Below are positions 3,180 to 42,183 of a DNA stretch of 43,796 bases, one piece after another. The DNA is from Spirochaetota bacterium (GTDB lineage: Bacteria; Spirochaetota; UBA4802; UBA5368), in assembly GCA_018263175.1 (NCBI GenBank), contig JADFDB010000006.1, positions 1-43,796 on the forward strand, written 5' to 3'. Every line of letters starts with the position of its first letter. Position 1 is the first letter of the stretch. The notes under the pieces were generated by a model. That model ran no database searches. It had not been told where the DNA came from and worked only from the letters and a program-made list of their open reading frames with translations. The position numbers and the translations under genes were made by a program.

Positions 3180-5498
3180 GTGTCCGTCGTCACGAACAAG
3201 ACTGAGTCCGATTGGAACGAAATAATCATATCCTCGGCCGTGGTCCCCGCCGTCTCGGGCAATGCGGCCGTGGTGCTCGAGAAGCGTTATCTTGCCAGGG
3301 ACGAGGAGGGGCGCGTCGTCGAGACGCCGGCGGGAATGTTCGAACGGATCGCGAAATTCATCGCGTCCGCCGATTATGCCTACGGCAGATCGCGGGAAGA
3401 GGTGAGCGCAACCGCCACGAGGTTCTACGAGATGATGGCCTCGCTCGAGTTCATTCCGAACAGCCCCACGCTCATGAACGCCGGCAGGCCCCTGGGGCAG
3501 CTTGCCGCCTGTTTCGTTCTGCCCGTCGGCGATTCCATGGAGGATATCTTCGACGCCATCAAGAACATGGCCCTCATCCACAAGAGCGGCGGCGGCACGG
3601 GCTTCTCGTTTTCACGCCTGCGTCCGAAAAACGACATGGTGCGCTCCACCACCGGCGTGTCGAGCGGCCCGGTTTCCTTTATGAACATCTTCAATGCCGC
3701 GACGGAAACCGTAAAACAGGGTGGGACCAGGCGGGGCGCGAACATGGCGATCCTCGCTGTCGACCATCCCGATATTCTCGAATTCATCTCGGCGAAGGAA
3801 AAGGGCGGTGTACTGACCAATTTCAACTGCTCGGTCGCGCTTACCGACGAATTCATGCGCGCGGTGGAGAGCGGCGGCGAATACGATCTCGTCAATCCCC
3901 GCACGGGAGGCGTCGTCACGCGGCTGAATGCCGCAAGCGTGTTCGACCTCATCGTCGGAAAGGCCTGGGAGAACGGCGAACCCGGGATCGTTTTTATCGA
4001 TCGCATCAACGACGGCAATCCGCTTAAAAAGGTCGGGAGGATAGAGAGCACCAATCCCTGCGGCGAACAGCCCCTGCTCCCCTACGAGTCCTGCAACCTG
4101 GGGTCCATCAATCTTGCCCGGGTCATTGCCGGCGATGACGACGGGGCCAGAATCGATTATGAAAAGCTCGCCGCGATTACGCGCGACGCGGTGCATTTTC
4201 TCGACAACGTGATCGATCGGAACAGGTATCCGCTCCCCGAGATACGGGAGATGACGCTCGCGAACAGGAAGATCGGCCTGGGCATCATGGGCTTCGCCGA
4301 TATGCTCATCCGCCTCGGCATTCCGTACGACTCGGATGAGGCGGTCGATATCGCCGAGGGCGTAATGTCGGCGATCCAGGACGAATCGAAAAAGGCCTCG
4401 CGCGCGCTCGCCGCTGAGCGCGGGGCCTTTCCGAATTTCGGGCTTTCGGATTTCGCCGAACGGAACGAACCGCCGATACGCCACGCGACCACGACGACGA
4501 TCGCGCCGACCGGAACCATCAGCATCATCGCCGACACCACGAGCGGCATCGAGCCCATCTTCGCGCTGGCCTTCGTACGCAACGTCATGGACGACAGCGC
4601 GCTTGTGGAGGTCAATCCGCTCTTCGAGCGCGCCGCGCGTGAGCGCGGGTTCCATTCGGACGAGCTCATGAAGCGCGTGGCCGCCGAGGGCACGGCCGCG
4701 CACATCGACGAGGTGCCCGCGGACGTACGGGGAGTTTTCGTCACCGCGCACGACATCGCGCCGGAGAGCCATATCAAGATCCAGGCGGCCTTTCAGCGGT
4801 TCGTCGATAACGCGGTGTCGAAGACCGTGAATTTTCCGAACGAGGCGGCGGTCGGCGACATCGACAGGGTCTACCGGCTCGCCTATGCCACGGGCTGCAA
4901 GGGCGTGACGGTGTACCGCGACGGCTCGCGCGAGAACCAGGTGCTCGAGGTGAAACGCGAGACGGCGCCCTCCGCGGCGGCCGCCGACGGGCCGCACCAG
5001 CTCATGCCGCGATCGCGCGGCGAGGTTACCTTCGGCTCGACGCGCAAGATGTCCACGGGCTGCGGGGCGCTGTACGTGACGATCAACCAGGACGACGAGG
5101 GGCTCTTCGAGGTATTCGCCACGATGGGCAAGAGCGGCGGTTGCGCGGCGAGCCAGACCGAGGCGGTCAGTCGCCTCATTTCGCTCTCGCTGCGCTGTGG
5201 GATCGAGCCCGTACAGATCATCAAGCAATTGAAGGGCGTGCGCTGTCCGAACCAGGCGTGGGAAAAGGGCGGGCGCATCTATTCATGCGCCGACGCCATC
5301 GCCAAGGCGCTCGAGCGGCACCTCGGCGTCGACTCGCGCGAGGGCCAGGGGAGCGATGCCGCGAAGAACGCCGCCGAGACCAACGGCAAGGGCTCGGACG
5401 CCGTGATGGTGGGCGTGTGCCCGGATTGCCACGGGCCGCTCGAGTTCGAGTCGGGCTGTTCGGTCTGCCGCATGTGCGGCTTTTCGCGCTGCGGATAG
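3180..5498 (+). CDS. nrdJ: Adenosylcobalamin-dependent (class II) ribonucleoside-diphosphate reductase
   Basis: 'NSPTLMNAGRPLGQLAACFVLPVGDSMEDIF', 'GGGTGFSFSRLRP', 'ATGCKGVTVYRDGSRENQVL', C-terminal Cys-rich 'CPDCHGPLEFESGCSVCRMCGFSRCG'. Confidence 0.93.
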   Translation: MSVVTNKTESDWNEIIISSAVVPAVSGNAAVVLEKRYLARDEEGRVVETPAGMFERIAKFIASADYAYGRSREEVSATATRFYEMMASLEFIPNSPTLMNAGRPLGQLAACFVLPVGDSMEDIFDAIKNMALIHKSGGGTGFSFSRLRPKNDMVRSTTGVSSGPVSFMNIFNAATETVKQGGTRRGANMAILAVDHPDILEFISAKEKGGVLTNFNCSVALTDEFMRAVESGGEYDLVNPRTGGVVTRLNAASVFDLIVGKAWENGEPGIVFIDRINDGNPLKKVGRIESTNPCGEQPLLPYESCNLGSINLARVIAGDDDGARIDYEKLAAITRDAVHFLDNVIDRNRYPLPEIREMTLANRKIGLGIMGFADMLIRLGIPYDSDEAVDIAEGVMSAIQDESKKASRALAAERGAFPNFGLSDFAERNEPPIRHATTTTIAPTGTISIIADTTSGIEPIFALAFVRNVMDDSALVEVNPLFERAARERGFHSDELMKRVAAEGTAAHIDEVPADVRGVFVTAHDIAPESHIKIQAAFQRFVDNAVSKTVNFPNEAAVGDIDRVYRLAYATGCKGVTVYRDGSRENQVLEVKRETAPSAAAADGPHQLMPRSRGEVTFGSTRKMSTGCGALYVTINQDDEGLFEVFATMGKSGGCAASQTEAVSRLISLSLRCGIEPVQIIKQLKGVRCPNQAWEKGGRIYSCADAIAKALERHLGVDSREGQGSDAAKNAAETNGKGSDAVMVGVCPDCHGPLEFESGCSVCRMCGFSRCG

Positions 5499-8903: not shown

Positions 8904-9701
8904 TTACAGCGGGATATCGTACCGCTTTTTTTTCGAGAAGCCGGATATCGAACGGTACCCGGCCTTTTTGGCCGCTTCTGCCGCGAGCGCAAACTCGTAG
9001 GCCACCTCGTCCGGGTTGTGGGCGTCGGAGCCCAGGGTGAGCGGCACCCCCTCGTCGAAGAGAATGGAGAGAATCGACGCCGAGGGATACATCTCGCCCG
9101 CCGGCTTGCGAAGTCCCGAGGTGTTGATCTCGACCGCGATGCCCCGGGCGGCGCATTCGCCGGCGAGGCGGCGTACCATGCCGCTCTGGTCGGCGCGGGA
9201 GCGATGACCGAATTTTTTCACGAGATCGAAGTGCCCGATTATATTGAAAACGCCCGCGGCGATGAGGCCGCTCACTATGGCAAAATAATCAGCGTAGACC
9301 GTGTCGATATTCCTGTGGTCGAACTCGTCCAGGTGGTCCGGGTTGTCGAAGCCCCAGCCGTCGATGAAGTGGCATGAGCCGATGAGGTAATCGATGCGGT
9401 CGTCCGCAAGGTATCGCCGGTCGAAGCTGTCGTGAAAGGGAAAGTCGACTTCCATCGCCGTTTTAACGACGATCGAGCCCGTGTGCCGTTCGCGCGCCGA
9501 GCCGACGAGCGCCAGGTATTCCTCGACCTGTTCGGGAAGCATCGTGATGCCCTCGCGAAGGCCTGTGGGGAGCGGGGCATGGTCGGAGAAGCCGATCTCC
9601 GAAAGCCCGGCGCGCACGGCGGCCCGGATGAAATCGTCGGGGCTCCCTTCGGCATGCCCGCAGAGGGGGGTGTGGGTGTGATAATCGACGAGTCCCTTCA
9701 A
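8904..9701 (-). CDS. PHP-domain histidinol-phosphatase (HisJ family)
   Basis: 'DYHTHTPLCGHA', 'IGFSDHAPLP', 'EVDF', 'GHFDLVKKFG', 'TLGSDAHNPDEV'. Confidence 0.88.
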   Translation of the reverse strand: MKGLVDYHTHTPLCGHAEGSPDDFIRAAVRAGLSEIGFSDHAPLPTGLREGITMLPEQVEEYLALVGSARERHTGSIVVKTAMEVDFPFHDSFDRRYLADDRIDYLIGSCHFIDGWGFDNPDHLDEFDHRNIDTVYADYFAIVSGLIAAGVFNIIGHFDLVKKFGHRSRADQSGMVRRLAGECAARGIAVEINTSGLRKPAGEMYPSASILSILFDEGVPLTLGSDAHNPDEVAYEFALAAEAAKKAGYRSISGFSKKKRYDIPL

Positions 9702-10375
9702 TAGCCGTTCCGCGAATAGAAAAAGGATATCTCGTCTATCTGGCTCGATACGGCCGGCGTTTCGGCACGGTCGCGCCGGATGAAAAATTTATCGATCCGC
9801 GCGTCGTCCGACCGTGACACGATTGACAGCGCGTACCACAGCGGCGGTATGCGAATTCCGTCCCGGCCGGACCACTCCGCTGGTATGCCGCCGGAGGCGA
9901 AGGATTCGGCTAATTCGAAGGAAAGGAATTCCGCGTATTCGCTGAAACGGGAATTGTCGATTGCGAAAAGGCAGGGGTGGTGCAGATAAAAGACGAGTAT
10001 GGCCCGCCGGCGCAGGTACAGGGCCATGAGCTCCGTTTCACCCGCCTCGACATGGCGGGGGCGGAGCACAATCTTTTCGACGTTCTCGAGGTCGCTCTTG
10101 CGGGGATACAGTGAGAGCAGGTAACGGATGTAGTCCGGCCCTTTGAGTATCGCCCGGCTGCCCTGATACGCGCGCCGCGGGTACAGTATCTCGACGGCGC
10201 CCCGCCCGTGCCTGAGACGATCCCCGACGTAAAGAGAGTCGAAGCGCGAGACGAGGATATTGTCGATGTCTAGGGAGAGGTCATCTTCGATCTCTCCGGT
10301 GGACTGTTCGACCGGAGGGCCGTCCGTCGCGTCGACATCCCGGTAATATTCGCGTATATCAAACATACTGATCAA
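9698..10375 (-). CDS. Conserved hypothetical protein
   Basis: 225 aa ORF overlapping the PHP gene start by 4 nt (ATGA), same strand. Confidence 0.65.
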   Translation of the reverse strand: MISMFDIREYYRDVDATDGPPVEQSTGEIEDDLSLDIDNILVSRFDSLYVGDRLRHGRGAVEILYPRRAYQGSRAILKGPDYIRYLLSLYPRKSDLENVEKIVLRPRHVEAGETELMALYLRRRAILVFYLHHPCLFAIDNSRFSEYAEFLSFELAESFASGGIPAEWSGRDGIRIPPLWYALSIVSRSDDARIDKFFIRRDRAETPAVSSQIDEISFFYSRNGY

Positions 10376-10440
10376 TGTAGCGTACGGGTGGTCCGATACA
10401 ATCTTTTTTCACCGACGCCGGGAAAAATAGGGAGACGGCG

Positions 10441-10470
10441 AAAAAAAAGACGATTCCGGGAGGAATCGTC
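10441..10470 (-). terminator. Rho-independent terminator for minus-strand transcription
   Basis: GACGATTCC-GGGA-GGAATCGTC with an 8-A tract on the plus strand (U8 on the minus-strand RNA). Confidence 0.85.
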
Positions 10471-10602
10471 AACCGTTTTAGTGGAAATTTGGAAGGTTGC
10501 TACCCTGAGGCAGCACTATCACTATAGCGCACAGGTCATGGAGCGCCCAAATTAATTATCATTTTTTAATCGACGAAATCGGTGTTTTTGTGTTTCTTTC
10601 CC

Positions 10603-10625
10603 CGATACCGATACCGATACCGATA
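10603..10625. repeat. Tandem hexamer repeat (CGATAC)x3 plus CGATA
   Basis: Read directly: cgataccgataccgataccgata. Confidence 0.95.
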
Positions 10626-10770
10626 ACTCGATTCTCGTCTGTGTGGCCCCGACATGCCGCAGAACGTTGGTAGCCGTCTGCTGGAAAATTCTGAAAAGGG
10701 CTACGACGCGCTCATCCCGTATCGCCGCGTCGTCTTCGACGAGCAGTATCCTCATTCCGGGTCGCGGCAT
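10624..10770 (-). pseudogene. Response-regulator N-terminus fused to a histidine-kinase fragment (two-component fossil)
   Basis: 'MPRPGMRILLVEDDAAIRDE' (receiver start) followed in frame by 'RVVALFRIFQQTATNVLRHVGATQTRIEL' (NarX/DegS-type HATPase N-box-like). Confidence 0.7.
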
Positions 10771-11052
10771 AATGGCTCTTCCGTAGTGAACAGGGTCGCA
10801 CGCAATGTGCGTCAGGGCGATGAGCAGTGTATACCGGTGGAACCTGAAAGTCAAGAGGGGGGCGGGAAGCTCAAAAGGATGCGGACGCGGAATGGCAATT
10901 TTCTCGACAGAAAAATTACTTGTTATAAAACACGATTTTGAGTGTGGTATACTGGAATTGTTGTATAACCGGGGAGAATCCAGATATTCTCAAGAGGTGA
11001 AACAGGTCTGCTGATTCGGGCTTATTGCGGAATCAGAAAAATACCACCGTAG

Positions 11053-11910
11053 ATGGCGAAGGCGGCTTGCATGTTCGACGCAGTATTCATAATCACGCTC
11101 CTCCTGTTTGCCGGCACCTCGGCGATGTGCATCTACTCGCTGCATACCGATGATGCGAGGTACCGTAACAGGGCAAAAGTCCTGCTCCTGGCGGCGGTCC
11201 TCGCGTTTTTCGCGCTGGGGGCCGTGCGGTTTTATTCCCACACCGGCGAGGGTGTCGTCAGGGGGGCGTTCAGCATCTGGGGATATTTTTATCTTCTCAC
11301 GCTCGTTCTCGTGCTTCTGCTTTTTTACCTGTACTTCTCGCGATGGAAGACCCAGTGGTGGTCGTTTACGACGCTCGCGGTCCCCTTTATTACGCTGGTA
11401 CTCATCATCTCGATTCCCTTCCTCGATTCCGCCAGGAGGATAACGGTCGATACCGGGCACTGGCTGCTCCCGCTCCACATCGTAATAGCGATCCTCGGAG
11501 AGATTTTCTTCTTTCTGAGCTTTGCCGGTTCGGTGCTGTACCTCGTGATGGAATGGCAGTTGAAGAAAAAGGCCTCGATGCGTTTCGTGTTCCGGCTTCC
11601 GACCCTCGAGTCCATTGAGAATTTCAACCGGTGGGCGATCGCCCGCGCGTTCGCGCTGCTTTCGCTCGGGCTTGTCTCCGGCGCCGTTGTCGCATACGCG
11701 GTGTTCTCCACCCCGTATCAGGGCAGTCCCAAGGAGATCATCCTCTATGCGTCGTGGGCCGTTATGCTGGGGCTCTTCTGGTTGCGCCACGGCGGGCGTA
11801 TCAATCCGCACAGGGCGAGCCAGCTCAACGCGTTCCTTTTCGCCGTGCTCATGTTCATCTTCATGTTTTCCAACATCTACATTACCATGGGGTTCCACGG
11901 CTTCAAATGA
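11053..11910 (+). CDS. hemX: HemX/CcsA-like integral membrane protein (cytochrome c assembly family)
   Basis: About 8 hydrophobic segments, 'TGHWLLPLHIVIAILGEIFFFLSFAGSVLYLV' region, directly upstream of hemA. Confidence 0.8.
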   Translation: MAKAACMFDAVFIITLLLFAGTSAMCIYSLHTDDARYRNRAKVLLLAAVLAFFALGAVRFYSHTGEGVVRGAFSIWGYFYLLTLVLVLLLFYLYFSRWKTQWWSFTTLAVPFITLVLIISIPFLDSARRITVDTGHWLLPLHIVIAILGEIFFFLSFAGSVLYLVMEWQLKKKASMRFVFRLPTLESIENFNRWAIARAFALLSLGLVSGAVVAYAVFSTPYQGSPKEIILYASWAVMLGLFWLRHGGRINPHRASQLNAFLFAVLMFIFMFSNIYITMGFHGFK

Positions 11911-13223
11911 AAGAGATCATTGACAGGCCCGAGATCGGCCTTATCGGGCTCAGCCATAAAACGGCGCCGGTCGGCCTTCGCGAGCGCTTTACGATCGGCG
12001 ACGACGAACTGCCCACCTTCTTCGATAAAACATGCTCCGAGGGTGTCGATGAGATCGTGTATCTGTCCACCTGCAACCGGGTGGAGATATATTTTATAAC
12101 GCGCGATATGAACGCGGCGGTCGAGTCGGTGCTGAGCGTTTTGGAGGGCGTTTCCTCCCTCCCCAGGGCGGAATTCGAGCCGGTGCTCTACAAGAAGTAT
12201 TCGCGCGAGGCGGTGTTGCATCTGCTGTCGGTGGCCTCCTCGCTCGATTCGATGGTGCTCGGGGAAAACGAGATTTTCTTCCAGGTCAAGAACTGCTACG
12301 GCAAGTCGGTGCGCGCGGGGAGGGCCGGCACCGTGCTCAACCGGCTCTTCCATCTGGCGTTCCGAACGGCAAAGCGCGTGCGTACGGAGACCGAGATATC
12401 GAAGAACCCGCTCTCAATCGCGTATATCGCCACCGAGCTCGCGCGCAAGATCTTTGACGATCTCTCGCGCCAGCGGGCGCTGTTGGTCGGTGCGGGCGAG
12501 ATGGGCGAGCTCATCCTGAAATATTTCACCAAGTTCAGCATAGGCGAGATCACCATAGCCAACCGCTCGCTCGCCAACGCCGAGCGGATAGCGCGCGAGG
12601 TCAACCGCGAGGCGCACATCGTGCCACTCGACGATATAGCCCCGGCGGCGGAGGGCGCGGACATCGTGATCGCGTCGGCGTCCTCACCGGGCTTTATCAT
12701 CACGACCGAGATGATGAAGTCGGTGGCGAAAAAGCGCGGCAGCCGCCCCGTTTTCCTGATCGATATCGCCGTCCCGCGAAACGTCGATCCCGGGGTCGGA
12801 AAGCTCGACAATGTGTTTCTGTATAACATCGACGACCTCAAGTCGATCGCGGATGAAAACCTCAAGCACCGGCTGCGGGAGGTGGATGTCGCGGAGGGCT
12901 ATATCCGCTCCGACGCGGACGAGTTTTATGAATGGTACGAGGGCCTCGCCGTCGTCCCGGCGATCGTAAAAATACGCACCGAGTTCGAGGCTATCCGCAC
13001 GGGCGAGCTCGAGCGTTACCGGAGGCGCAGGCTCAAACATCTGTCGGAGGACGATTTCCGCATCATCGAGGACCTCACGCGGCAGATCATGACCAAGACG
13101 CTGCACAACCCGATCGCCTATCTCAAGCACTACCAGACGAAGGCGAAGGGACACCGCGATCGCGAAGCGCACCACGGCCCCGGAGAAGTGGCGCGCATTA
13201 TAGAGGAGCTGTTCGGGAAATGA
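11907..13223 (+). CDS. hemA: Glutamyl-tRNA reductase
   Basis: 'GLSHKTAPVGLRERF', 'YLSTCNRVEIYF', 'ALLVGAGEMGELILKYF', 'LIDIAVPRNVDP'; ATG overlaps the upstream stop (ATGA). Confidence 0.96.
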   Translation: MKEIIDRPEIGLIGLSHKTAPVGLRERFTIGDDELPTFFDKTCSEGVDEIVYLSTCNRVEIYFITRDMNAAVESVLSVLEGVSSLPRAEFEPVLYKKYSREAVLHLLSVASSLDSMVLGENEIFFQVKNCYGKSVRAGRAGTVLNRLFHLAFRTAKRVRTETEISKNPLSIAYIATELARKIFDDLSRQRALLVGAGEMGELILKYFTKFSIGEITIANRSLANAERIAREVNREAHIVPLDDIAPAAEGADIVIASASSPGFIITTEMMKSVAKKRGSRPVFLIDIAVPRNVDPGVGKLDNVFLYNIDDLKSIADENLKHRLREVDVAEGYIRSDADEFYEWYEGLAVVPAIVKIRTEFEAIRTGELERYRRRRLKHLSEDDFRIIEDLTRQIMTKTLHNPIAYLKHYQTKAKGHRDREAHHGPGEVARIIEELFGK

Positions 13224-14290
13224 AGATGGCGCCGGACACACTGAGGCTCGTATTCTGGGAGCTCACCAAACGATGCAACCTGCGCTGCGTGCACTGCCGC
13301 GCGGAGGCGGACGATTCGCTCTTCGCCGGGGAGCTCGACACGGCCGCGGCGCTGCGCGTCGTTGACGACATAGCCGCCTTCGCAAATCCCATTCTGGTGC
13401 TCACCGGCGGCGAGCCGCTGTACAGGGCGGACCTCTTCGAGATCGCGCGCCATGCCGCGTCAAAGGGACTGCGGACCGCGCTGGCGACCAATGGGACGCT
13501 GATCGACGCGGGAATCGCGCGCGTCATCCGGGAGGCCGGATTCGGCCGGGCAAGCATCTCGATCGACGGATCGAACGCCGCCTCGCACGACGGCTTCCGC
13601 GGCATCCCGGGATCGTTCGAGCGGGCGCTCGGGGGGGCGCGGCTGCTCTTGGAGGAAGGCGTCGAGTTCCAGTTCAATACGACCATCACGCGGCGGAACG
13701 TGGGCGAGATCGAGGGAGTGCTCCGGCTCGCCGAGGAGCGCGGCGCGAAGGCCCTGCACGTTTTCATGCTGGTGCCGGTGGGCTGCGGCGTGGAGATCGC
13801 CGAGAGCGATATGCTCTCACGCGAGAAATACGAGGAGGTGCTCGCCTGGCTGTACCATCGCACGAAGGACGCGCCCTTCGAGTTCAAGGCGACGTGCGCC
13901 CCGCACTATTACCGCATCATGCGCCAGGAGGCGAAAAAGGAGGGGCGCACGGTGAGCTTCGAGACCGACGGCATGGCCGCCATGACGCGCGGCTGCCTGG
14001 CCGGGAGCGGCGTGTGCTTCATATCGCACCGGGGCGACGTGCAGCCCTGCGGCTATCTTCCGCTCGTGGCGGGGAACGTGCTCGAGAGGCCGCTCGCGGA
14101 GATATGGGAGAAATCGGAGCTGTTCGCCAGACTTCGAAAGATCGACGACCTTGGCGGCAAGTGCGGCCTGTGCGAATACCGCGCCTTCTGCGCGGGCTGC
14201 CGCGCCCGGGCCTATTACGACACGGGGGACTGCATGGCCGAGGAGCCCTATTGCGTGTACGTACCGAAGCGGGCGGGGTCGCGAGAATGA
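13220..14290 (+). CDS. ahbD: Radical SAM heme synthase AhbD-like (Fe-coproporphyrin III to heme b)
   Basis: 'CNLRCVHC' CX3CX2C, 'LTGGEPLYRADLFE', SPASM-like 'CGLCEYRAFCAGCRARAYYDTGDCMAEEPYC'; operon context. Confidence 0.85.
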   Translation: MKMAPDTLRLVFWELTKRCNLRCVHCRAEADDSLFAGELDTAAALRVVDDIAAFANPILVLTGGEPLYRADLFEIARHAASKGLRTALATNGTLIDAGIARVIREAGFGRASISIDGSNAASHDGFRGIPGSFERALGGARLLLEEGVEFQFNTTITRRNVGEIEGVLRLAEERGAKALHVFMLVPVGCGVEIAESDMLSREKYEEVLAWLYHRTKDAPFEFKATCAPHYYRIMRQEAKKEGRTVSFETDGMAAMTRGCLAGSGVCFISHRGDVQPCGYLPLVAGNVLERPLAEIWEKSELFARLRKIDDLGGKCGLCEYRAFCAGCRARAYYDTGDCMAEEPYCVYVPKRAGSRE

Positions 14291-15339
14291 CACGCTTCAC
14301 GCGCACCGAGGAGCGCATCATCAACCGCATACAGGAGGACATCCCCCTGGCGATCGAGCCCTTCCGGCGCATCGCGGGCGAGCTCTCGCTTGCCGAGGGA
14401 GAGCTCCTCGAAACGGTCGCGCGCCTGAAGGCGAAGCGGATCGTGCGGAACATTTCGGCCATCTTCAACGCGAACCGTCTCGGCTACCATTCGAGCCTGA
14501 TCGCGCTTTCGGTCGCCGACGCGGACGTTGAACGCGCGGTCGAGGTCATCAACGCGCATCCCGGTGTAAGCCACAATTATCTGCGCGACCACCGGTTCAA
14601 CATCTGGTTTACGCTGGCGATGGACGGCGCGACGCCGCTCGAGGAGGCCGCCGCGGTGCTCGCCCGGCACTGCCGCGCGGCGGACCATCTCATCCTCAGA
14701 AACGAAAAGCTCTACAAAATAGAATTCATGCTGAGGCTGGGGGATGACGTGCCCGAGGACGAGGAGGAGGACTGGGCGGCCGGAACGAGCGGCACGGCCC
14801 CCGCGCACGACGACGGTGAGTACCCGTTGAGCGCAGAGGAGCGGGAGGCGGTGCTTTTGCTCCAGACGGACCTTCCCATCACCTCAAGGCCGTTCGACGC
14901 GATAGTCGCCGATGCGCAGAGCTCGCTTGGCGCCGCGCGGCTCGTGGCCATCGGCGAGGATCTGAAATTGAAGGGAATCATGCGGCGCTACGCCGCGGTG
15001 CTCAAGCACTATAACGCCGGGTACGGCGCGAACGCCATGACCGCGTGGAGGATCGGCGCGGGGCGCACGGAAGACGAGGTCGTGCCGGTGTTTTTATCGA
15101 ATAAAAGCATTTCGCATCTTTACCGGAGGACGGAGCATCCCGGGCGATGGGAACACCCGCTGTTCGCGATGATCCACGCGCGAAGCGATGCCGAACTCGA
15201 CGGCATTATCGCCGCCCTCGAGGCGAAGTCGGGCCTCGACGACTACCTGGTGCTGAAAAGTCTCCGCGAGTTCAAAAAGAAGCGCGTGACGTATTTTTCG
15301 CCGGCGTTCGACGCGTGGAAGAAGGAGAACATGCGATGA
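14287..15339 (+). CDS. ahbAB: Fused siroheme decarboxylase (AhbA-AhbB / NirDL-like, two Lrp/AsnC-type halves)
   Basis: First half 'IVRNISAIFNANRLGYHSSL...VSHNYLRDHRFNIWFTL'; second half 'IMRRYAAVLKHYNAGYGANAM...SISHLYRRTEHPGRWEHPLFAMIHARS'; linker 'EDEEEDWAAGTSGTAPAHDDGEYPLS'. Confidence 0.88.
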   Translation: MTRFTRTEERIINRIQEDIPLAIEPFRRIAGELSLAEGELLETVARLKAKRIVRNISAIFNANRLGYHSSLIALSVADADVERAVEVINAHPGVSHNYLRDHRFNIWFTLAMDGATPLEEAAAVLARHCRAADHLILRNEKLYKIEFMLRLGDDVPEDEEEDWAAGTSGTAPAHDDGEYPLSAEEREAVLLLQTDLPITSRPFDAIVADAQSSLGAARLVAIGEDLKLKGIMRRYAAVLKHYNAGYGANAMTAWRIGAGRTEDEVVPVFLSNKSISHLYRRTEHPGRWEHPLFAMIHARSDAELDGIIAALEAKSGLDDYLVLKSLREFKKKRVTYFSPAFDAWKKENMR

Positions 15340-15415
15340 AGTCCGACCGCGCCTTGATCTGCGTCGCCGGGAAAACATCGGCTGTAAAAATTAATAAGCG
15401 TTCCGGAGCATTGCG

Positions 15416-16690
15416 ATGATCGATATAGGAAAACTCTACTGCGGTGGCTCGTCCACCGGTGACGGACTGCGCTACGGGACCGAGGCACCGTCGGACGCGC
15501 ACGGCAACGCGCCGCACCATCGCGAAACGCTCGCGAGCGAGCGGCGTCCCATCGTGGTGTGGAGTACCACGCGCAGCTGCAACCTGAGCTGCGTGCACTG
15601 CTATACCGACTCGGCAAACGTGAAATACTCGGGCGAGCTCGACACCGGCGAGGGCTTGAAGCTCATCGACGACCTCGCGTCCTTCCGTGTGCCCTCGCTC
15701 CTCTTCTCGGGAGGCGAGCCGCTCATGCGCAGGGACCTCTTTCGCCTCATCGAACACGCGGCGAAGGCCGGCATCCGCCCGGTCATCTCGACCAACGGCA
15801 CGCTGATCGACCGCGGCGCGGCGAACTCCATCCGCAACGCCGGCGTCACTTACGTCGGCATAAGCCTGGACGGCATGGAGGAGGTGAACGACCGCTTCCG
15901 CGGAATGAAGGGAGCGTTCGCGAAGGCCATGAAGGGCTTCGAGCACTGCATCGCCGCGGGGCAGCGGGTCGGACTCCGCCTCACGCTCACACGCCGGAAC
16001 TACGAGGACCTGGACGGCATCTTCGATTTCATCGAGCGCGAGGGGATAAGCCGTGCCTGCTTTTACCACCTCGTCTATTCGGGCAGGGGCGGGAATATGT
16101 ACGGCGACGACCTCACCCACGCCGAGAGCCGCCGCGCCATGGACATCATCCTTCGGCGCACGAAGGATTATTTCGATCGCGGGCTCGACATCAACATCCT
16201 GACCGTGGACAACCACGCCGACGGCGTGTACATTTATCTCAGGCTTCTCGATGCCGATCCGGCGCGCGCGGAGGAGGTGCGAACGCTCCTCGCATGGAAC
16301 GGCGGCGGGGCGCACTCGACCGGGGTCGGTATCGGCAATATCGATTTCTTCGGGAACGTGCATCCCGACCAGTTCTGGCAGGACTACACGCTCGGCAACG
16401 TCCGCGAGCGGAGCTTCGGCGACATCTGGATGGACGAGAGCGATCCGCTCATGCGCGGGCTCAAGCGCAAGGCAGAGTACATCAAGGGGCGCTGCAGGCT
16501 GTGCGCGCACCGCGCGCTCTGCACCGGCGCCATGCGCGTGCGCGCCTTCCGCGCATACGACGACCCGTGGGCGCCCGATCCGCAGTGCTACATCACCGAC
16601 AAGGAGATCGGGCTTGACGATGAGAAGATGCGGGAGCTGCGCGAAAGCGGCGAGGAGTTCCCGGTCCCCATGGAGCTCGCAGGACGATGA
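15416..16690 (+). CDS. ahbC: Radical SAM 12,18-didecarboxysiroheme deacetylase AhbC-like (NirJ-related)
   Basis: 'IGKLYCGGSSTGDGLRYG', 'VVWSTTRSCNLSCVHCYTDS', 'LFSGGEPLMRRDL', 'CRLCAHRALCTGAMRVRAFRAYDDPWAPDPQCYITDKEIG'. Confidence 0.9.
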   Translation: MIDIGKLYCGGSSTGDGLRYGTEAPSDAHGNAPHHRETLASERRPIVVWSTTRSCNLSCVHCYTDSANVKYSGELDTGEGLKLIDDLASFRVPSLLFSGGEPLMRRDLFRLIEHAAKAGIRPVISTNGTLIDRGAANSIRNAGVTYVGISLDGMEEVNDRFRGMKGAFAKAMKGFEHCIAAGQRVGLRLTLTRRNYEDLDGIFDFIEREGISRACFYHLVYSGRGGNMYGDDLTHAESRRAMDIILRRTKDYFDRGLDINILTVDNHADGVYIYLRLLDADPARAEEVRTLLAWNGGGAHSTGVGIGNIDFFGNVHPDQFWQDYTLGNVRERSFGDIWMDESDPLMRGLKRKAEYIKGRCRLCAHRALCTGAMRVRAFRAYDDPWAPDPQCYITDKEIGLDDEKMRELRESGEEFPVPMELAGR

Positions 16691-17349
16691 AACTCTATCC
16701 GGTTCTGCTCAACATCGAGGGCGCTCTTGCCGTGGTGGTCGGTGGCGGCGAGGTGGCGCTCAGGAAGGCGCTCGACCTCCTCGATGCGGGCGCGCGCGTG
16801 AGGGTGGTCTCGCCGCGTCTGCACCCGGAGCTCGTGGACGCGGCGCGCGCGAACGCCGAAAGGCTCGTCCTCGTGGAGCGCGCGTACCGGGCCGGCGACC
16901 TCGAAGGGGCCGCCCTCGTCTTCACGGCGACCGACAGCCCGGACGTCAACCGGTCCGTGTTTGAGGAAGCAGGGCGGCGCGGCATCTTCATTAACTCGGC
17001 CGACGATCCGCCCAACTGCTCGTTCTACCTGCCGTCATTCGTTCGCAGGGGCGATTTTATCATGGCCGTTTCCACAAGCGGGGCTTCGCCCGCCTACGCG
17101 GCGCGGCTTCGACGCGCGCTCGAAAAGGCCGTTCCGGAGAATGTCGACGCGATCCTTGCCGCGCTTCGGGAGGCACGCCGTATTCTTCAGGTGGACGAGG
17201 CCTTTGCCGACATGGATTTTTCCGCGCGCGGAGAACTTTTAAAGAAGATCGCCGCCGACGACGCCCTCCTCGCGCGATGCGCCCGTGCATACGAGGAGGC
17301 GGAGCTCCCGCGCCTGCTGAACGGAATGCGCGGACGCGGGGTGCGCTGA
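16687..17349 (+). CDS. Precorrin-2 dehydrogenase / possible sirohydrochlorin ferrochelatase (SirC/Met8p/CysG-N)
   Basis: 'PVLLNIEGALAVVVGGGEVALRKALDLLDAGARVRVVSP', 'SADDPPNCSFYLPSFVRRGDFIMAVSTSGASPAYAARLR'. Confidence 0.93.
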   Translation: MKLYPVLLNIEGALAVVVGGGEVALRKALDLLDAGARVRVVSPRLHPELVDAARANAERLVLVERAYRAGDLEGAALVFTATDSPDVNRSVFEEAGRRGIFINSADDPPNCSFYLPSFVRRGDFIMAVSTSGASPAYAARLRRALEKAVPENVDAILAALREARRILQVDEAFADMDFSARGELLKKIAADDALLARCARAYEEAELPRLLNGMRGRGVR

Positions 17350-17422
17350 GAACGGCATGAGCCGGAGCGAAAGCCCCGGCCTTTTTATGGGCTCGGGCTT
17401 TTCGCGCATCGCAACCCGGCGT

Positions 17423-19219
17423 CTATTCGGCGTACATGCGATCGATCAGCGGTTTGTAGATCTCGGCGACCGCCTTGCGTTTGATCTTCATGGTCGGCGT
17501 GATCTCACCGTCCTCCACGGTGAATTCCTTCGCGAGGAGGGTGAAGCGCTTGATCTTCTCGAACTCGGCAAATTCCTTCGAGCACTCTTCTATACGCTTC
17601 CGGTAAAAGTCGACGATCTCCGGCCGTGCGATGAGCTCCTCGTGAGAGGCATGGGCGATGCCATGCTCCTTCGCGTACTCGACGAGCGCCTCGAACGAGG
17701 GCACGATGAGGGCGCTGACGTACTTGCGCTGGTCGCCGATGACGGCAATCTGCTCGATGAAGTGGTCGGCGCCGACGGTGCTCTCGATGAGCTGCGGCGC
17801 GATATATTTCCCGCCCGATGTCTTCATGAGGTCCTTGATGCGCTCCGTGATGCGCAGCTCACCGTTCACCTCGAAGAAACCGGCGTCGCCCGTGCGGAAG
17901 AAGCCGTCGGCGGTGAAGACCTCGGCGGTCGCCTCGGGCTTCTTGTAATAGCCCTTCATGATGTTCCCGCCGCGGATGAGGATCTCGCCGTTCGCCTCGT
18001 CGATCTTCACCTCGATGTTGTCGAGGGGCTTGCCGACCGCTCCAAATCTGAAAAAATGCGGCTCGTGGCAGGTAACCGTCGCCGTCGTCTCGGTAAGCCC
18101 GTAGCCGTAGCAGATGAAGACGCCGGTTGCGTAGAAGAACTCCTCGATCTCCTGCGAGAGCGGGGCTCCGGCGCACGGGAAGAACTTGATTCGGCCGCCC
18201 GTGATGTCACGAAGCTTGGAGAGCACCAGTTTGTCGGCCAGACCGTACTTCAGCGCGAGCCAGGGGCCGACGAATGCTTTATCGCGCTTCTTTTCGTTGC
18301 GTGCCGCGCCGGTGCGTATGGCCCAGTTGAAGAGCTTTCTTTTTGCCGGCGGCGCGGCCTCGAGGCGGTTGAAGACCGTCGCGTAGATCTTTTCGTAGAA
18401 ACGCGGCACCGCACACATTATGGTGGGTTTCGCCTCCTGGATGAACTCCACAATCTTCTTGGTATCGTCGAGGTAGTTGTTCGTCATGCCGACGGCGAGC
18501 GCGTAATAGGTCCAGATTCGCTCGAAGACGTGCGAGAGCGGCAGGAAGCAGAGCGAGACATCGTTTTCGTTGGGGTCGATGAGCCGCCGGTCATGCCGCT
18601 CCTTCTGGAAGATGATGTTGGAATGCGCGAGCATCACCCCCTTGGGCTCCCCCGTGGTGCCGGAGGTGTAGATGATGGTGAGCAGGTCTTCGGGGACACC
18701 GCGCGCCATGCGCTCGTCGAATTCCCTGTCGCGGTCCGACTTCCGCCCGATCTCGAGGAAATCGCCGAAGTACATGACGTCGGCCGACCGGGCGATCGGG
18801 AGCTTTTCATTGAAGACGACGATCTTCTTTAGAAATTCGTTTCTGCCGAAAATCTGCATGGCCTTGTCGTACTGTTCCCGGTCACCGACGAAGAGCACCG
18901 CGATCTCCGCGTCGTTGATGATGTATTCGGCCTGCTTCGCCGTGTTTGTGGGATAGATCGGCACCGGAATGGCCCTGACGCAGAGGGCGCCGATGTCGGC
19001 AATGCTCCACCGGGGCATGTTCTGAGAGAAGATGCCCGCCGTCTTTTGCTCGCCGATGCCGCATTCGATAAGCGCCTTGCCGACGGCGCGCACCTGCTCG
19101 CCGAACGACCGCCACGACGTCTCCTCCCATTCGGCGCCGGGCTTGTAGCGGAGGGCTATGCGGTCGCCGTATTTTTCGACCTGCTGCCGGAACACCTGTG
19201 AGTAATGACGATAGTCCAT
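17423..19219 (-). CDS. Long-chain fatty-acid--CoA ligase (AMP-forming)
   Basis: 'TIIYTSGTTGEPKGVMLAH', 'YGLTETTATVTCH', 'FRTGDAGFFEVNGELRITERIKDLMKTSGGKYIAPQLIE'; start MDYRHYSQ at 19219. Confidence 0.93.
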   Translation of the reverse strand: MDYRHYSQVFRQQVEKYGDRIALRYKPGAEWEETSWRSFGEQVRAVGKALIECGIGEQKTAGIFSQNMPRWSIADIGALCVRAIPVPIYPTNTAKQAEYIINDAEIAVLFVGDREQYDKAMQIFGRNEFLKKIVVFNEKLPIARSADVMYFGDFLEIGRKSDRDREFDERMARGVPEDLLTIIYTSGTTGEPKGVMLAHSNIIFQKERHDRRLIDPNENDVSLCFLPLSHVFERIWTYYALAVGMTNNYLDDTKKIVEFIQEAKPTIMCAVPRFYEKIYATVFNRLEAAPPAKRKLFNWAIRTGAARNEKKRDKAFVGPWLALKYGLADKLVLSKLRDITGGRIKFFPCAGAPLSQEIEEFFYATGVFICYGYGLTETTATVTCHEPHFFRFGAVGKPLDNIEVKIDEANGEILIRGGNIMKGYYKKPEATAEVFTADGFFRTGDAGFFEVNGELRITERIKDLMKTSGGKYIAPQLIESTVGADHFIEQIAVIGDQRKYVSALIVPSFEALVEYAKEHGIAHASHEELIARPEIVDFYRKRIEECSKEFAEFEKIKRFTLLAKEFTVEDGEITPTMKIKRKAVAEIYKPLIDRMYAE

Positions 19220-19335
19220 TGTATCCAATCCTCCTGTGTGTGATGTTGCTGTTGTGGTCCCCATAATGGGTCGCCGGGGATGCACAAATATTCATGTAAC
19301 CAATTATGTAATAAGTCAAGATTATTTAAAATAGG

Positions 19336-19529: not shown

Positions 19530-21071
19530 TCACCGAAAATTGAGACAGCGGATAAACTCGTCGTTGAAATCGGCGCGCATGGTGAGCTCGACGACGCTGA
19601 GCGCGTCGCGAAGCGAACGGCACCTGCCGATGAACGCGTGGTCCGTGCATGCGCGCTCGGCCGCCGCGAGGCTCGTATTGCCCAGAAAGCGGTAGGCGGC
19701 GTTCGGGAAGTCGGGCAGGAAGCCGAGCGTACGGAAATTCTCGATGTCGAGATTCTCGCCGAAGGCCCCGGCGACGAGAACGTGTTCGATTCGCCCGGCA
19801 TCGTACGCGGCCTCTACGAGGAGTATGCGCGCGGCGGCAAGGCTGGCGCCCTTGGCCAACTGGATGTTCCGGATGTCCTTCTGGGTGATCGAAACGCCGC
19901 GATCGAGCAGGCAGGCCGTTGTGCCGCCTTGATTCACGACGCGGCCGCTGAATATCGCGGAAGTCTCCGCCGCCGCGCGGTCGAAGGCGCCGCTGCCGCG
20001 CACAACGCCCTCGCGGAGCATGATGGCCAGCGCGTCGATAATGCCGGTGCCGCAGATTCCTACGGGTGCGGCGCCGCCGATTATCTGCGGGCGGAGAATT
20101 CCGTTCACGGCGGTATAATGATTGATCGCGCCCTCGTCGGCCGTCATGCCGGAGGATATGTTCATGCCCTCGAGTGCCGGGCCCATGGCGCAGGAAGCGG
20201 CGTAGACCGTGCCGGCATCATCGCGCAAAAACATCTCGCCGTTGGTGCCGATGTCGATGAAGAACACGTTGCGCTCGAGGCCCATAAGCTCCGACAGGGC
20301 AAGGCCGCCGACGAGGTCCCCACCGAGGAAGGCCGAGGCCGAGGGGAGCGCCGCGATGCGGGCCGCGGGCAGAAGGTCCTCAAGCGCGGTGTGCTGATCG
20401 TAGTCGAGCTCCCGCGCGGTGTAGGGGTGTACGCCGAGCGTCCTGACGTCGATGTCGAAGAAGAGATGGGTCATGGTCGTGTTGCCCGAGACGACGAGGA
20501 GGCCGATGTCGTCCGGGGTCATGCCGCTTCCCGAAAGGCCTGCGGCTATGGATGAGGCGACCGCGGAGCGAATTACGCGCACCAGCGATTCGCGGAGTGC
20601 CGGATCCGCTGAGGCGGCGATGCGCGCGATGACGTCGTGGCCGTGGCGCCGCTGCGGATTGAGGAACGAGCCGAGCGGGTGGGCCGGGCCGTCCGGGCGC
20701 TCGACGATGGAGAGCTGTACCGTGGTGGTGCCGATATCGAGCGCGACTGCCGGGTCGTGCAGGCGCGAGGGAAGCGGCCTCTCGGAGCGTGCCGCCGCGG
20801 CGGGAGGGACGCGCACCGTCATGTCGTTTTCGAGTGTGGTACGGCAGGCGAGACGCGCGCGCGGTTCCGATGGAAAGAAGCGCTTCTCCGCGTCGGAGCG
20901 CTCCGCTGCGCCGGACTCGATCAGCACGCCGCACTTGCCGCAGATCCCCTTTCCGCCGCAGGGGGTGCGCAGGAGCGCCCCCATGTCCGCGAGCGCGTCG
21001 ATGAGCGGCGTTCCCCTGTCGAATTCGCGGGACGCGCCGCCGGGTGCAAGGGTCAGAAGTAATTTTTCCAT
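19530..21071 (-). CDS. RACo-like ASKHA-domain reductive activator with N-terminal 2Fe-2S ferredoxin (DUF4445 family)
   Basis: 'CGGKGICGKCGVLIESG...ACRT' 2Fe-2S motif, 'ALDIGTTTVQLSIV', 'FIDIGTNGEMFL', 'GICGTGIIDALAIM', 'VAGAFGENLDIEN'. Confidence 0.9.
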   Translation of the reverse strand: MEKLLLTLAPGGASREFDRGTPLIDALADMGALLRTPCGGKGICGKCGVLIESGAAERSDAEKRFFPSEPRARLACRTTLENDMTVRVPPAAAARSERPLPSRLHDPAVALDIGTTTVQLSIVERPDGPAHPLGSFLNPQRRHGHDVIARIAASADPALRESLVRVIRSAVASSIAAGLSGSGMTPDDIGLLVVSGNTTMTHLFFDIDVRTLGVHPYTARELDYDQHTALEDLLPAARIAALPSASAFLGGDLVGGLALSELMGLERNVFFIDIGTNGEMFLRDDAGTVYAASCAMGPALEGMNISSGMTADEGAINHYTAVNGILRPQIIGGAAPVGICGTGIIDALAIMLREGVVRGSGAFDRAAAETSAIFSGRVVNQGGTTACLLDRGVSITQKDIRNIQLAKGASLAAARILLVEAAYDAGRIEHVLVAGAFGENLDIENFRTLGFLPDFPNAAYRFLGNTSLAAAERACTDHAFIGRCRSLRDALSVVELTMRADFNDEFIRCLNFR

Positions 21072-21242
21072 TACACCGGGTTGTTGCATACGCGGACGGC
21101 AAAATCAAATTATTTTTTTGCTCCTTCGCCGGTGCTCACACGGCGCGCCGGGAAGGTACGGGTTTTTTAATTGCTTTTTAATCACAAACTTTTATAAATA
21201 GCTGCCATCGCGCCGCCGAGGCGCTCCCGGCACAGGGCATTT

Positions 21243-39269: not shown

Positions 39270-40652
39270 TTATTCGAGGTAAACGCTCTCCGTGTCCGGT
39301 ATGGACAGGGAAGCGGGGATATCCGCCGCTTCGAGCGCAAGCAGGGGGGATATCTCGATTTTTTGAACCCGCGCCGGGATGCGTATACCGCGTTTCCCGA
39401 TCCAGCGCCGATACAGCCCGGTCATGAGCTCGTGCGCGGACTCCACCGAGTCGACCCCCGACGGGTTTTTTACCGGGGCGAACTCGTCCTCACGACGTAT
39501 CTCGAGCACGATGTTTTTGTCCGTGAGCGGAAGGGCATCGAAGACGAATTTTTCGAATTTGAATCCTTCAATCTCAACAGGACCCGACAGGGTGTGCGAG
39601 ACGATATTTTTCCGCGCGACGTGGAAGGGAAGCGAGGCCTCCGCTCCGCCCGCTATTTTTTCAAGGAAGCCGACGTTGAACAGATGGATGGCGATGCTGC
39701 CCATGCAGAAACGGAGTGCGCCGCGTTCGTCGCGCATGTTCTGCAAATCTTCGGGCAGGTCCGAATATTCGACCACGCCGATCGTCCCGTCGTCGAAGCG
39801 CACGAAGACGCCGAGTTTTTCGTCCGGATAGGCCTTCATGAGGCCCTTGCTCGAAATATCGGCGCCGCCCTGCGCGTGAAAGCCGATGAATACCGGATCG
39901 ACGATGGAAACGAGCGGATTGTCGACCTGAAAGTACGAAATCACCTCGATGCCGCGCCCGCGCATCGCCGCGAGCGTTCCCGAACCGGCGAGCGCGCTCA
40001 GGCTTCCGCCGTGGCCGTCGGGATTTTTAAAAATGGCCGAGGGAGACTCGAGGATCAGCCTGCCGCCGGCGTCGAGGGAGGGGATCATGCTCTGGGGGAA
40101 GATGTAGACGTCTTTCTCGTCGAGCCCAAAGTGATTGTGGGCGGCGAGGTAGCGCATCGTGTCCGCATGATTGGCCTCTGAGGTCATGATGAGCCAGGGT
40201 ATGGGAGCGCCGTACTTCTCGGAGCTTTTAAGGATTTTTTCCGCGTGGATCCGGAAAAGGGATTTGCCGGAAACCGGCCCCACCGCGAAGAGCCCCTTGG
40301 GGCCGTCGAAGCCGAGGCGGGACCCCTGCCCGCCTGCCACGACAAAGGCCGCGACGGCACCCCTTCGGATGAGCGCACTTCCGTCCTCGCGCGCGGCTTC
40401 GAAGCGGCGCACGGCCCCGCTGTCGGCGGGTACGGGGATATAGGGTGCGGGCTCGAAGCCCATTGCCGGCGGGGCGCTCTCGCCGGCCTGCCGATAGAGG
40501 CGTGCGAGAAGCTTGAAATCTATCGAAGACGCGTCGTCGAGCAGGGCCTTTCTTCCGGCGTCCGGGAGCCGCTCCCAGAAGGCGAAGATGTGCTCCTGCC
40601 CGTAATCGTATACGCGCTCTATAACGTCGTTCCGGTCCGGGTATGAAATCAT
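39270..40652 (-). CDS. UDPGP-family UTP--(N-acetyl)hexosamine/glucose-1-phosphate uridylyltransferase
   Basis: 'FVVAGGQGSRLGFDGPKGLFAVGP', 'MTSEANHADT', 'NPDGHGGSLSAL', 'QVDNPLVSIVDP'; start MISYPDRN at 40652 (track ORF extends spuriously to 41471). Confidence 0.9.
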   Translation of the reverse strand: MISYPDRNDVIERVYDYGQEHIFAFWERLPDAGRKALLDDASSIDFKLLARLYRQAGESAPPAMGFEPAPYIPVPADSGAVRRFEAAREDGSALIRRGAVAAFVVAGGQGSRLGFDGPKGLFAVGPVSGKSLFRIHAEKILKSSEKYGAPIPWLIMTSEANHADTMRYLAAHNHFGLDEKDVYIFPQSMIPSLDAGGRLILESPSAIFKNPDGHGGSLSALAGSGTLAAMRGRGIEVISYFQVDNPLVSIVDPVFIGFHAQGGADISSKGLMKAYPDEKLGVFVRFDDGTIGVVEYSDLPEDLQNMRDERGALRFCMGSIAIHLFNVGFLEKIAGGAEASLPFHVARKNIVSHTLSGPVEIEGFKFEKFVFDALPLTDKNIVLEIRREDEFAPVKNPSGVDSVESAHELMTGLYRRWIGKRGIRIPARVQKIEISPLLALEAADIPASLSIPDTESVYLE

Positions 40653-40833
40653 TGCATGTCCTCGCGGGCTAGGTGATGATAGACTAATCGGCGCCATTTT
40701 CGCCGGGATGTCAAATAAGTTTTTAGCGTCCGTGTCCCGGCGCCGGTTTGCCGGAGAAGGGCTTGCAAAAGACGGGAGCCCGCCATAGCATCGGACCGGA
40801 CGGTATAATAAAAACGAAACGGGGAGATGCGCG

Positions 40834-42183
40834 ATGAAAACCATGCGGGAGGATATGCGCGAGATGTATACCGCCGCGATCGAGGCCGTCAATCCGCGAA
40901 GGGCGGTGCTCGAGCATCTGCAAGTGCGCGACGGCAGTCTGCTCGTATACTCGAACGAAAAGCAGGTCCGCGAACTCGATCTCTTTCGGTTCCGCCGCGT
41001 GTACGTGCTGGGCGCGGGGAAGGCCACCGCCCTCATGGCGCAGGCGGTCGAGGAGCTGCTCGGGGACAGGATCACCGCAGGCTGTATATCGGTGAAGTAC
41101 GGGTATACCGCGCCGCTCTCGCGCATCGAAGCGGTCGAGGCCGCGCACCCCGTACCCGACGAAAAGGGAAGGATGGCCGCGGAGCGCATAGTGCAGCTCG
41201 CCGCCGAGGCGGGCGGGGAAGACCTCGTCATCTCGCTCATCTCGGGAGGGGGCTCGTCGCTGCTTCCGCTGCCGGTACCGCCCGTCACGCTCGAGGAAAA
41301 GCGCGAGACTACAAATCTTCTTTTAAGGAGCGGCGCGTCGATCCACGAGATGAACGCCGTGCGCAAGCACCTGTCCCGTATAAAGGGTGGAAATCTCGCG
41401 CGGGCCGCGCATCCGGCGACCGTCATCAATCTCATGATCTCGGACGTGGTCGGAGACGATCCCGACGTCATCGCGTCGGGGCCGCTGGTTCCCGACGCGT
41501 CGACCTTCGCCGATGCGCTTGCTGTCCTCGAGCGCTACCGCATCGCCGGCTCGGTGCCCGCGGCCGTGCGCAAACGCATCCGGGACGGTGCCGACGGTCT
41601 CGTGCCGGAAAACCCCAAAGCGGATGAGGAATGCTTCGCGGGCGTGACCGGCGTTATCATCGCCTCGAACATCCTCGCGCTTAACGCGGCGCGCCGGAAG
41701 GCTGCGGCCCTGGGCTACAACACCGTCGTCCTTTCCTCGCTCGTCGAGGGCGATACGCGCCAGGCGGCGCTTTTCCATGCGGCCATCGCACGCGAGGCAC
41801 TCGCTTCGGGCAACCCGGCGAAGGCTCCGGCCTGCATCATCAGCGGAGGGGAGACCACGGTCGAGGTGCATGGCAAGGGCCTTGGCGGACGCAACACGGA
41901 GTTCGCACTGCATTCAGCGGTCTTTTTGGCCGGGGTGCGGGGCATCTCTGCGGCCAGCGTGGGTACCGACGGTTCCGATGGCCCGACCGATGCGGCCGGC
42001 GCTTTTGCCGACGGTGCAACGATCGCGCGCGCTGAGAGCGCCGGCCTGAACGTCGGATCGTACGCGGATAATAACGATTCGTATAATTTTTTTAAGGATC
42101 TCGGCGATCTCATCATCACCGGCCCCACCAATACCAACGTGATGGACGTGCGGATTATGCTGGTTCGGGAGGACGGCGGGTGA
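40834..42183 (+). CDS. Glycerate 2-kinase (DUF4147/MOFRL)
   Basis: 'VLGAGKATALMAQAVEELLGD', 'SLISGGGSSLLPLPV', 'MNAVRKHLSRIKGGNLARAAHPA', 'SGGETTVEVHGKGLGGRNTEFAL', 'SVGTDGSDGPTDAAGAFAD'. Confidence 0.93.
   Translation: MKTMREDMREMYTAAIEAVNPRRAVLEHLQVRDGSLLVYSNEKQVRELDLFRFRRVYVLGAGKATALMAQAVEELLGDRITAGCISVKYGYTAPLSRIEAVEAAHPVPDEKGRMAAERIVQLAAEAGGEDLVISLISGGGSSLLPLPVPPVTLEEKRETTNLLLRSGASIHEMNAVRKHLSRIKGGNLARAAHPATVINLMISDVVGDDPDVIASGPLVPDASTFADALAVLERYRIAGSVPAAVRKRIRDGADGLVPENPKADEECFAGVTGVIIASNILALNAARRKAAALGYNTVVLSSLVEGDTRQAALFHAAIAREALASGNPAKAPACIISGGETTVEVHGKGLGGRNTEFALHSAVFLAGVRGISAASVGTDGSDGPTDAAGAFADGATIARAESAGLNVGSYADNNDSYNFFKDLGDLIITGPTNTNVMDVRIMLVREDGG

Follow-up and report, generated by a model that had tools for sequence, protein, structure and literature searches.

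A six-gene operon in an uncultured spirochaete appears to encode the terminal part of the siroheme-dependent (Ahb) pathway of heme b synthesis, a reading to which we assign a probability of about 0.9. The genes, hemX, hemA, ahbD, ahbAB, ahbC and sirC, lie on the plus strand at positions 11053-17349 of the window, that is, the whole stretch of 43,796 nucleotides that was analysed (contig JADFDB010000006.1, here C208). The contig belongs to a metagenome-assembled genome (MAG) of 2.65 Mb in 241 contigs, 73% complete (G000). The siroheme route is known from sulfate reducers and archaea and is oxygen-independent. Both the pathway itself and the fusion of AhbA with AhbB are already known (PMC3942049, PMC3004389, PMC4145669).

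In the proposed route, HemA would begin the pathway from glutamyl-tRNA, its abundance probably tuned by HemX, and HemB, HemC and CobA-HemD, encoded elsewhere in the genome, would yield precorrin-2. SirC would oxidise precorrin-2 and probably also insert Fe(II), giving siroheme. AhbAB would then take two acetate carboxyls off siroheme to form 12,18-didecarboxysiroheme, AhbC would take off the remaining two acetate side chains to form Fe-coproporphyrin III, and AhbD would produce heme b by oxidative decarboxylation of two propionates. Oxygen would be required at no step.

Gene content and order of the operon

The initial annotation described a siroheme-route operon of six genes on one strand, and all six were found at the positions listed in Table 1, each with a match to a family profile. 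Its naming held as to gene content, with the correction that ahbA and ahbB are fused into a single gene. For ahbD, 13220 is the probable start, because it gives an ATGA overlap with hemA and the relatives likewise start with MKM. Adjacent genes overlap by 4 bases at four of the five junctions (hemX/hemA, hemA/ahbD with the start at 13220, ahbD/ahbAB and ahbC/sirC), and ahbAB and ahbC are separated by a gap of 76 bases. The overlapping genes are compatible with a single, putatively co-transcribed unit. A promoter scan of the operon gave matches no more often than expected by chance, and a terminator scan gave no convincing candidate; an Rfam scan of 10300-17500 gave no match.

Table 1. Positions of the operon genes in the window and of the related loci in two candidate hybrid genomes
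Feature	Position	Strand	Assignment
hemX	11053..11910	+	Cytochrom_C_asm-family membrane protein adjoining hemA
hemA	11907..13223	+	glutamyl-tRNA reductase; TIGR01035, three GlutR-type Pfam domains
ahbD	13220..14290 (start 13220 or 13226)	+	predicted radical SAM heme synthase; TIGR04545, eight-Cys SPASM
ahbAB	14287..15339	+	predicted fused siroheme decarboxylase; AhbA and AhbB models, HXYXR twice
ahbC	15416..16690	+	predicted radical SAM 12,18-didecarboxysiroheme deacetylase, NirJ1/AhbC type
sirC	16687..17349	+	precorrin-2 dehydrogenase, TIGR01470; probably also sirohydrochlorin ferrochelatase (CysG-B/Met8p type)
G013 hemE-hemH-hemY plus ahbD-sirC	L182 8683-12123 and L211 8468-10119
G037 hemE-hemH-hemY plus ahbD-sirC	L183 7106-10530 and L212 6962-8656

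AhbAB is a single protein of 350 aa that matched the AhbA model at 201.6 bits (cut-off 140) and the AhbB model at 183.6 bits (cut-off 125), and it aligned with the fused NirD-like protein 4ch7 at an E value of 3.9e-59. The HXYXR motif, which has been assigned to the active site (PMC4145669), is present in each half (H96NYLR and H277LYRR). Fusion of the AhbA and AhbB genes has been described in almost all non-methanogenic archaea having these genes (PMC3004389). The window protein resembles this archaeal ahb-nirDH fusion, but it is bacterial and is accompanied by an AhbD of the full-SPASM type of methanogens and sulfate reducers.

AhbD scored 481.5 bits on TIGR04545 and 333 bits on the next family, 149 bits lower. 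It carries CX3CX2C at residues 17-24 and a complete eight-cysteine SPASM pattern, CX32CX17CX37CX2CX5CX2CX17C, at residues 224-343. This pattern was found in 0 of 109 AhbC and 0 of 5 NirJ sequences of the comparison set, and it falls within the full SPASM pattern reported for the AhbD of methanogens and sulfate reducers (PMC10452713). An AlphaFold2 model of AhbD (pLDDT 85) matched PqqE, SuiB and anSME, the SPASM enzymes to be expected. We infer that the window ahbD encodes a heme synthase converting Fe-coproporphyrin III to heme b. The TIGR04545 cut-off of 500 bits was passed in 18 genomes of the phylum sample, all within the order of the window. We left out an AhbD of G346 (L222), near-identical to that of G024 and located on a contig of 1.3 kb, as probable contamination. 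The full AhbD-type SPASM pattern also occurs in one radical SAM protein of a Paenibacillus plasmid; Paenibacillus polymyxa plasmid pSb31l (L203 4001-7208) encodes a NirJ1-like radical SAM protein, a full-SPASM radical SAM protein and an AsnC-like protein whose length is that of a fusion.

The joining of HemA and a precorrin-2 dehydrogenase to the Ahb genes was borne out by scores of 402 bits on TIGR01035 (cut-off 210) and 126 bits on TIGR01470 (cut-off 62), and the HemA assignment is unambiguous. HemX matched Cytochrom_C_asm (PF01578) at 45.7 bits (Pfam cut-off 29.9) and has several hydrophobic segments. The WWD motif of CcsA is missing in 15 of 15 orthologues, leaving HemX as a hemA-adjacent Cytochrom_C_asm protein without this motif; its assignment as CcsA/CcsB was rejected, the score of 41 bits lying below the cut-off of 188. 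Adjacent hemX and hemA genes (gtrR-hemX), with a HemX of the Cytochrom_C_asm family, occur in Bacillales (PMC5801465), where hemX lies downstream of hemA rather than upstream as in the window. The likely role of HemX is to regulate HemA abundance.

The predicted enzyme set is that of the Ahb pathway of Methanosarcina barkeri and Desulfovibrio, with which the window shares the full eight-cysteine SPASM of AhbD and HXYXR motifs in both AhbAB halves. It differs in that AhbA and AhbB are separate in those organisms, in that the window AhbC falls into a group intermediate between AhbC and NirJ1, and in that SirC looks bifunctional. Clustering with early hem genes is shared with archaeal Ahb clusters (PMC3004389).

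Pathway completeness and distribution across the order

hemB, hemC, hemD and the uroporphyrinogen III methyltransferase (SUMT) gene are, as initially noted, outside the window; hemB was found on host contig C194 and hemC with a cobA-hemD fusion on C26. A search of the host genome for rival heme routes found no HemE or HemN over its cut-off and no HemH or ChdC; HemF, HemG and HemY were not searched for. Three host matches to PF01208 were rejected as HemE, since they fell far under the hemE cut-off where scored and look like methyltransferases. A B12-binding-type protein is encoded beside PF01208 matches on one host contig, and URO-D-type methyltransferase genes were seen on C79.

We examined 39 genomes of the order, which represent seven families. 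AhbAB was present in 32 genomes and in members of six families. HemE over the cut-off or HemH was found in none of the 32 AhbAB genomes, ChdC was found in none of the 39, and the HemN matches seen in 12 genomes were rejected, all being under the cut-off. Since the host MAG is incomplete, the argument from absence is carried by these relatives. Most of the order appears to use the siroheme route instead of the usual one. In four genomes of family f3 (G009, G014, G018 and G026), searches for AhbAB, HemB, CobA, HemE and HemH found none, and these genomes look unable to make tetrapyrroles.

The operon consists of two recurrent gene modules, (hemX-)hemA-ahbD and ahbAB-ahbC-sirC, which adjoin each other in families f1, f6 and f7. 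In f4 and f5 each module has its own locus; two f1 genomes have extra genes inserted within the operon run. Eight f7 genomes have hemC, cobA-hemD, hemB and hemL adjoining. One spirochaete genome, G035 (L045 1545-11818), carries hemC, cobA-hemD, hemB, hemL, hemA, ahbD, ahbAB, ahbC and sirC on one strand within ~10.3 kb. Because hemA-ahbD and ahbAB-ahbC-sirC recur across genomes of the order, the operon is not a chance arrangement.

Three MAGs labelled deltaproteobacterial (L069, L068 and L073) encode AhbC proteins 76-80% identical to that of the window. L069 groups with G035 and has the same nine-gene order, pointing to lateral transfer or a mislabelled MAG. In family f10 of Spirochaetota, a nine-gene Ahb cluster has a different order (L220 6037-15985, and L219). 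The L220 AhbC scored 704 bits, over the AhbC cut-off, and the L220 AhbD is placed elsewhere in the tree, which suggests a separate origin of the f10 cluster.

Several observations weigh against the assignment to heme b synthesis. The window AhbD is ~18 bits under the NCBIfam cut-off. AhbC, which scored 524 bits on NirJ1, 498 on AhbC (both cut-offs 650) and 397 on NirJ (cut-off 515), is far under its own cut-off, and its best score is with NirJ1, a family that NCBI labels as putative heme d1 biosynthesis. With a host MAG that is 73% complete, absences in the host are weak on their own. Finally, searches for CbiX/SirB and CbiK found no dedicated sirohydrochlorin chelatase in the host. The last and the second of these points bear on SirC and AhbC, respectively, and are weighed below.

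SirC and iron insertion

Siroheme supply would depend on SUMT encoded elsewhere in the genome, the dehydrogenase of the operon and an iron-inserting activity for which CbiX/SirB and CbiK gave no match. Both of these chelatases are likewise missing in 28 of the 32 AhbAB genomes. In a search of the PDB, the window SirC matched CysG best (82.8 bits), and the monofunctional SirC 3dfz scored 53.7 bits. The chelatase activity of CysG has been tied to D104, a loop with P106, and P133, and monofunctional SirC is reported to carry a serine instead of D104 and to be without the DAPK loop (PMC7018833). The equivalents of D104, P106 and P133 are kept in 34 of 34 SirC copies, namely the window protein and 33 related ones. 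Conservation of these residues, the best match to CysG and the lack of a known chelatase in most AhbAB genomes together suggest that SirC is a dehydrogenase/ferrochelatase of the Met8p type, which we consider probable. The window protein differs from CysG in standing alone without a SUMT domain, and its ferrochelatase activity is a prediction.

The alternative that SirC is a dehydrogenase only, with heme b still being made and iron entering through an unrecognised chelatase or spontaneously, is a real but lesser possibility. Chelatases can be divergent, and many siroheme makers have no recognisable CysG-, Met8p- or SirB-like enzyme (PMC4063343). This alternative sits poorly with the retention of the D104, P106 and P133 equivalents in every copy, with the reported serine and missing loop of monofunctional SirC, and with the higher score for CysG than for 3dfz. 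A bifunctional SirC in these operons is proposed to close the missing-chelatase gap.

Relatives that may combine AhbD with a coproporphyrin route

Two genomes from sister genera of the order, G013 (98% complete) and G037 (94% complete), are the only ones among the 39 with HemE over the cut-off or HemH, and they have both (Table 1). Both lack AhbAB, and neither gave an AhbC-like match where other genomes show ~200 bits. ChdC was not found in either and HemN was under the cut-off; HemF was not searched for. HemH of G013 scored highest with coproporphyrin ferrochelatases (155 bits versus ~103 for mammalian enzymes). The closest match of G013 HemY is 3i6d, presumably from Bacillus subtilis. AhbD is over the cut-off in both genomes (507 bits in G013, 505 in G037) with sirC directly downstream of it, the two genes overlapping in G013. 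In the tree, the two AhbD proteins are sisters inside the AhbD clade of the order. The simplest reading is that an ancestral operon lost its central genes, ahbAB and ahbC, and that AhbD now uses coproheme supplied by the coproporphyrin route.

We lean towards regarding AhbD as an exchangeable terminal module. In G013 and G037, HemE would have taken the place of the siroheme half of the pathway together with a ferrochelatase of the coproporphyrin type and an oxidase of the CgoX type, with AhbD kept beside sirC and ChdC absent. In this hybrid route the radical SAM enzyme AhbD, not ChdC, would convert coproheme to heme, with no need for oxygen or peroxide. These genomes also bear on whether the window genes might serve some other derivative of siroheme or Fe-coproporphyrin instead of heme b. 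Retention of AhbD despite the loss of AhbAB and AhbC, with Fe-coproporphyrin III obtainable in another way, agrees with heme b being the final product, and such a derivative is very unlikely. Separately, a distant spirochaete family includes a single-contig genome of 4.0 Mb (G352, L223 7909-9976) in which ahbD is directly followed by the ferrochelatase gene hemH. This AhbD is without the full SPASM motif, and the pair is perhaps a second hybrid case.

AhbC and heme d1

The profile scores of AhbC would also be compatible with an operon supplying heme d1 to a cytochrome cd1 nitrite reductase, AhbC acting as NirJ, to which it is homologous. By profile the window protein is nearest to NirJ1 of the NirJ1/NirJ2 set (TIGR04054, TIGR04055), but its partner radical SAM protein is AhbD (481 bits) and scores only 312 on NirJ2. 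In Actinomycetota, Armatimonadota and WOR-1, AhbC proteins whose genes adjoin ahbD are likewise intermediate in their profile scores, and an authentic NirJ reached 572 bits on the NirJ model. The initial annotation had judged a heme d1 role less likely and proposed a phylogeny of the radical SAM proteins as a check. In the tree, five NirJ sequences formed a separate clade with support of 100/100, and constraining the window AhbC into this clade was rejected (AU p = 0.0023).

The reference nirDLGH-nirJ clusters for heme d1 on Paracoccus, Ruegeria and Pseudomonas plasmids encode a siroheme decarboxylase and a radical SAM protein that are homologous to those of the window. Unlike the window, they have cytochrome d1-domain genes alongside, and no AhbD in the stretches examined. 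A search with PF02239 (cytochrome d1) gave no match in the 73% complete host MAG, its genus or families f1, f3 and f5; in relatives only partial beta-propeller repeats were detected. Of the two outcomes that the initial annotation had named as refuting, a grouping of the radical SAM proteins with NirJ was not seen in the tree, and a complete protoporphyrin/coproporphyrin pathway with a nirS cluster was not seen in the host MAG. The tree, the missing cytochrome d1 match and the presence of AhbD, which would serve heme b, led us to reject the heme d1 role as highly improbable, in line with the earlier judgement. We infer that the window AhbC is a deacetylase of the NirJ1/AhbC intermediate type.

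Host and neighbouring genes

The initial expectation of a spirochaete-like host agrees with the closest named AhbC relatives among GTDB genomes, which are mostly uncultured 'Spirochaetes' MAGs. AhbAB is present in four congeneric genomes. Two of them (G003 and G004) have all six genes with matching neighbours on both sides, and in the other two (G001 and G002) the operon continues beyond the contig end. Misbinning of a foreign contig into the spirochaete MAG is scarcely credible, despite the 241 contigs and the close AhbC relatives in deltaproteobacterial-labelled MAGs, given these congeneric copies and the spread of AhbAB over the order.

Upstream of the operon, at 8904-10375 on the minus strand, lie a PHP/histidinol-phosphatase-like gene and a conserved gene of 225 aa, which are kept in f1, f2 and f6. 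A convergent AMP-binding gene (17423-19285) comes next after sirC. Elsewhere the window encodes a ribonucleotide reductase with a TSCPD domain (3180-5498, plus strand), a RACo-type corrinoid activation protein (19530-21089, minus strand) and a 733-aa protein whose UDPGP nucleotidyltransferase domain is confined to the C-terminal half (39270-41471, minus strand).

Implications

A search of freely accessible papers found none linking AhbD with spirochaetes. We argue that the proteins annotated as NirJ1 act as AhbC-type deacetylases in heme b synthesis; if so, database names in many anaerobes would be corrected. The hybrid relatives would be the more novel part, if confirmed. The ChdC-equivalent step in anaerobic growth of coproporphyrin-route bacteria has been called unknown (PMC10965808). 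The arrangement in G013 and G037 is a natural candidate for a way to replace ChdC that would not require oxygen.

Together, these results would make the siroheme route a trait of a whole order of uncultured Spirochaetota, a phylum in which heme synthesis is known from Leptospira, where it follows the HemH route.

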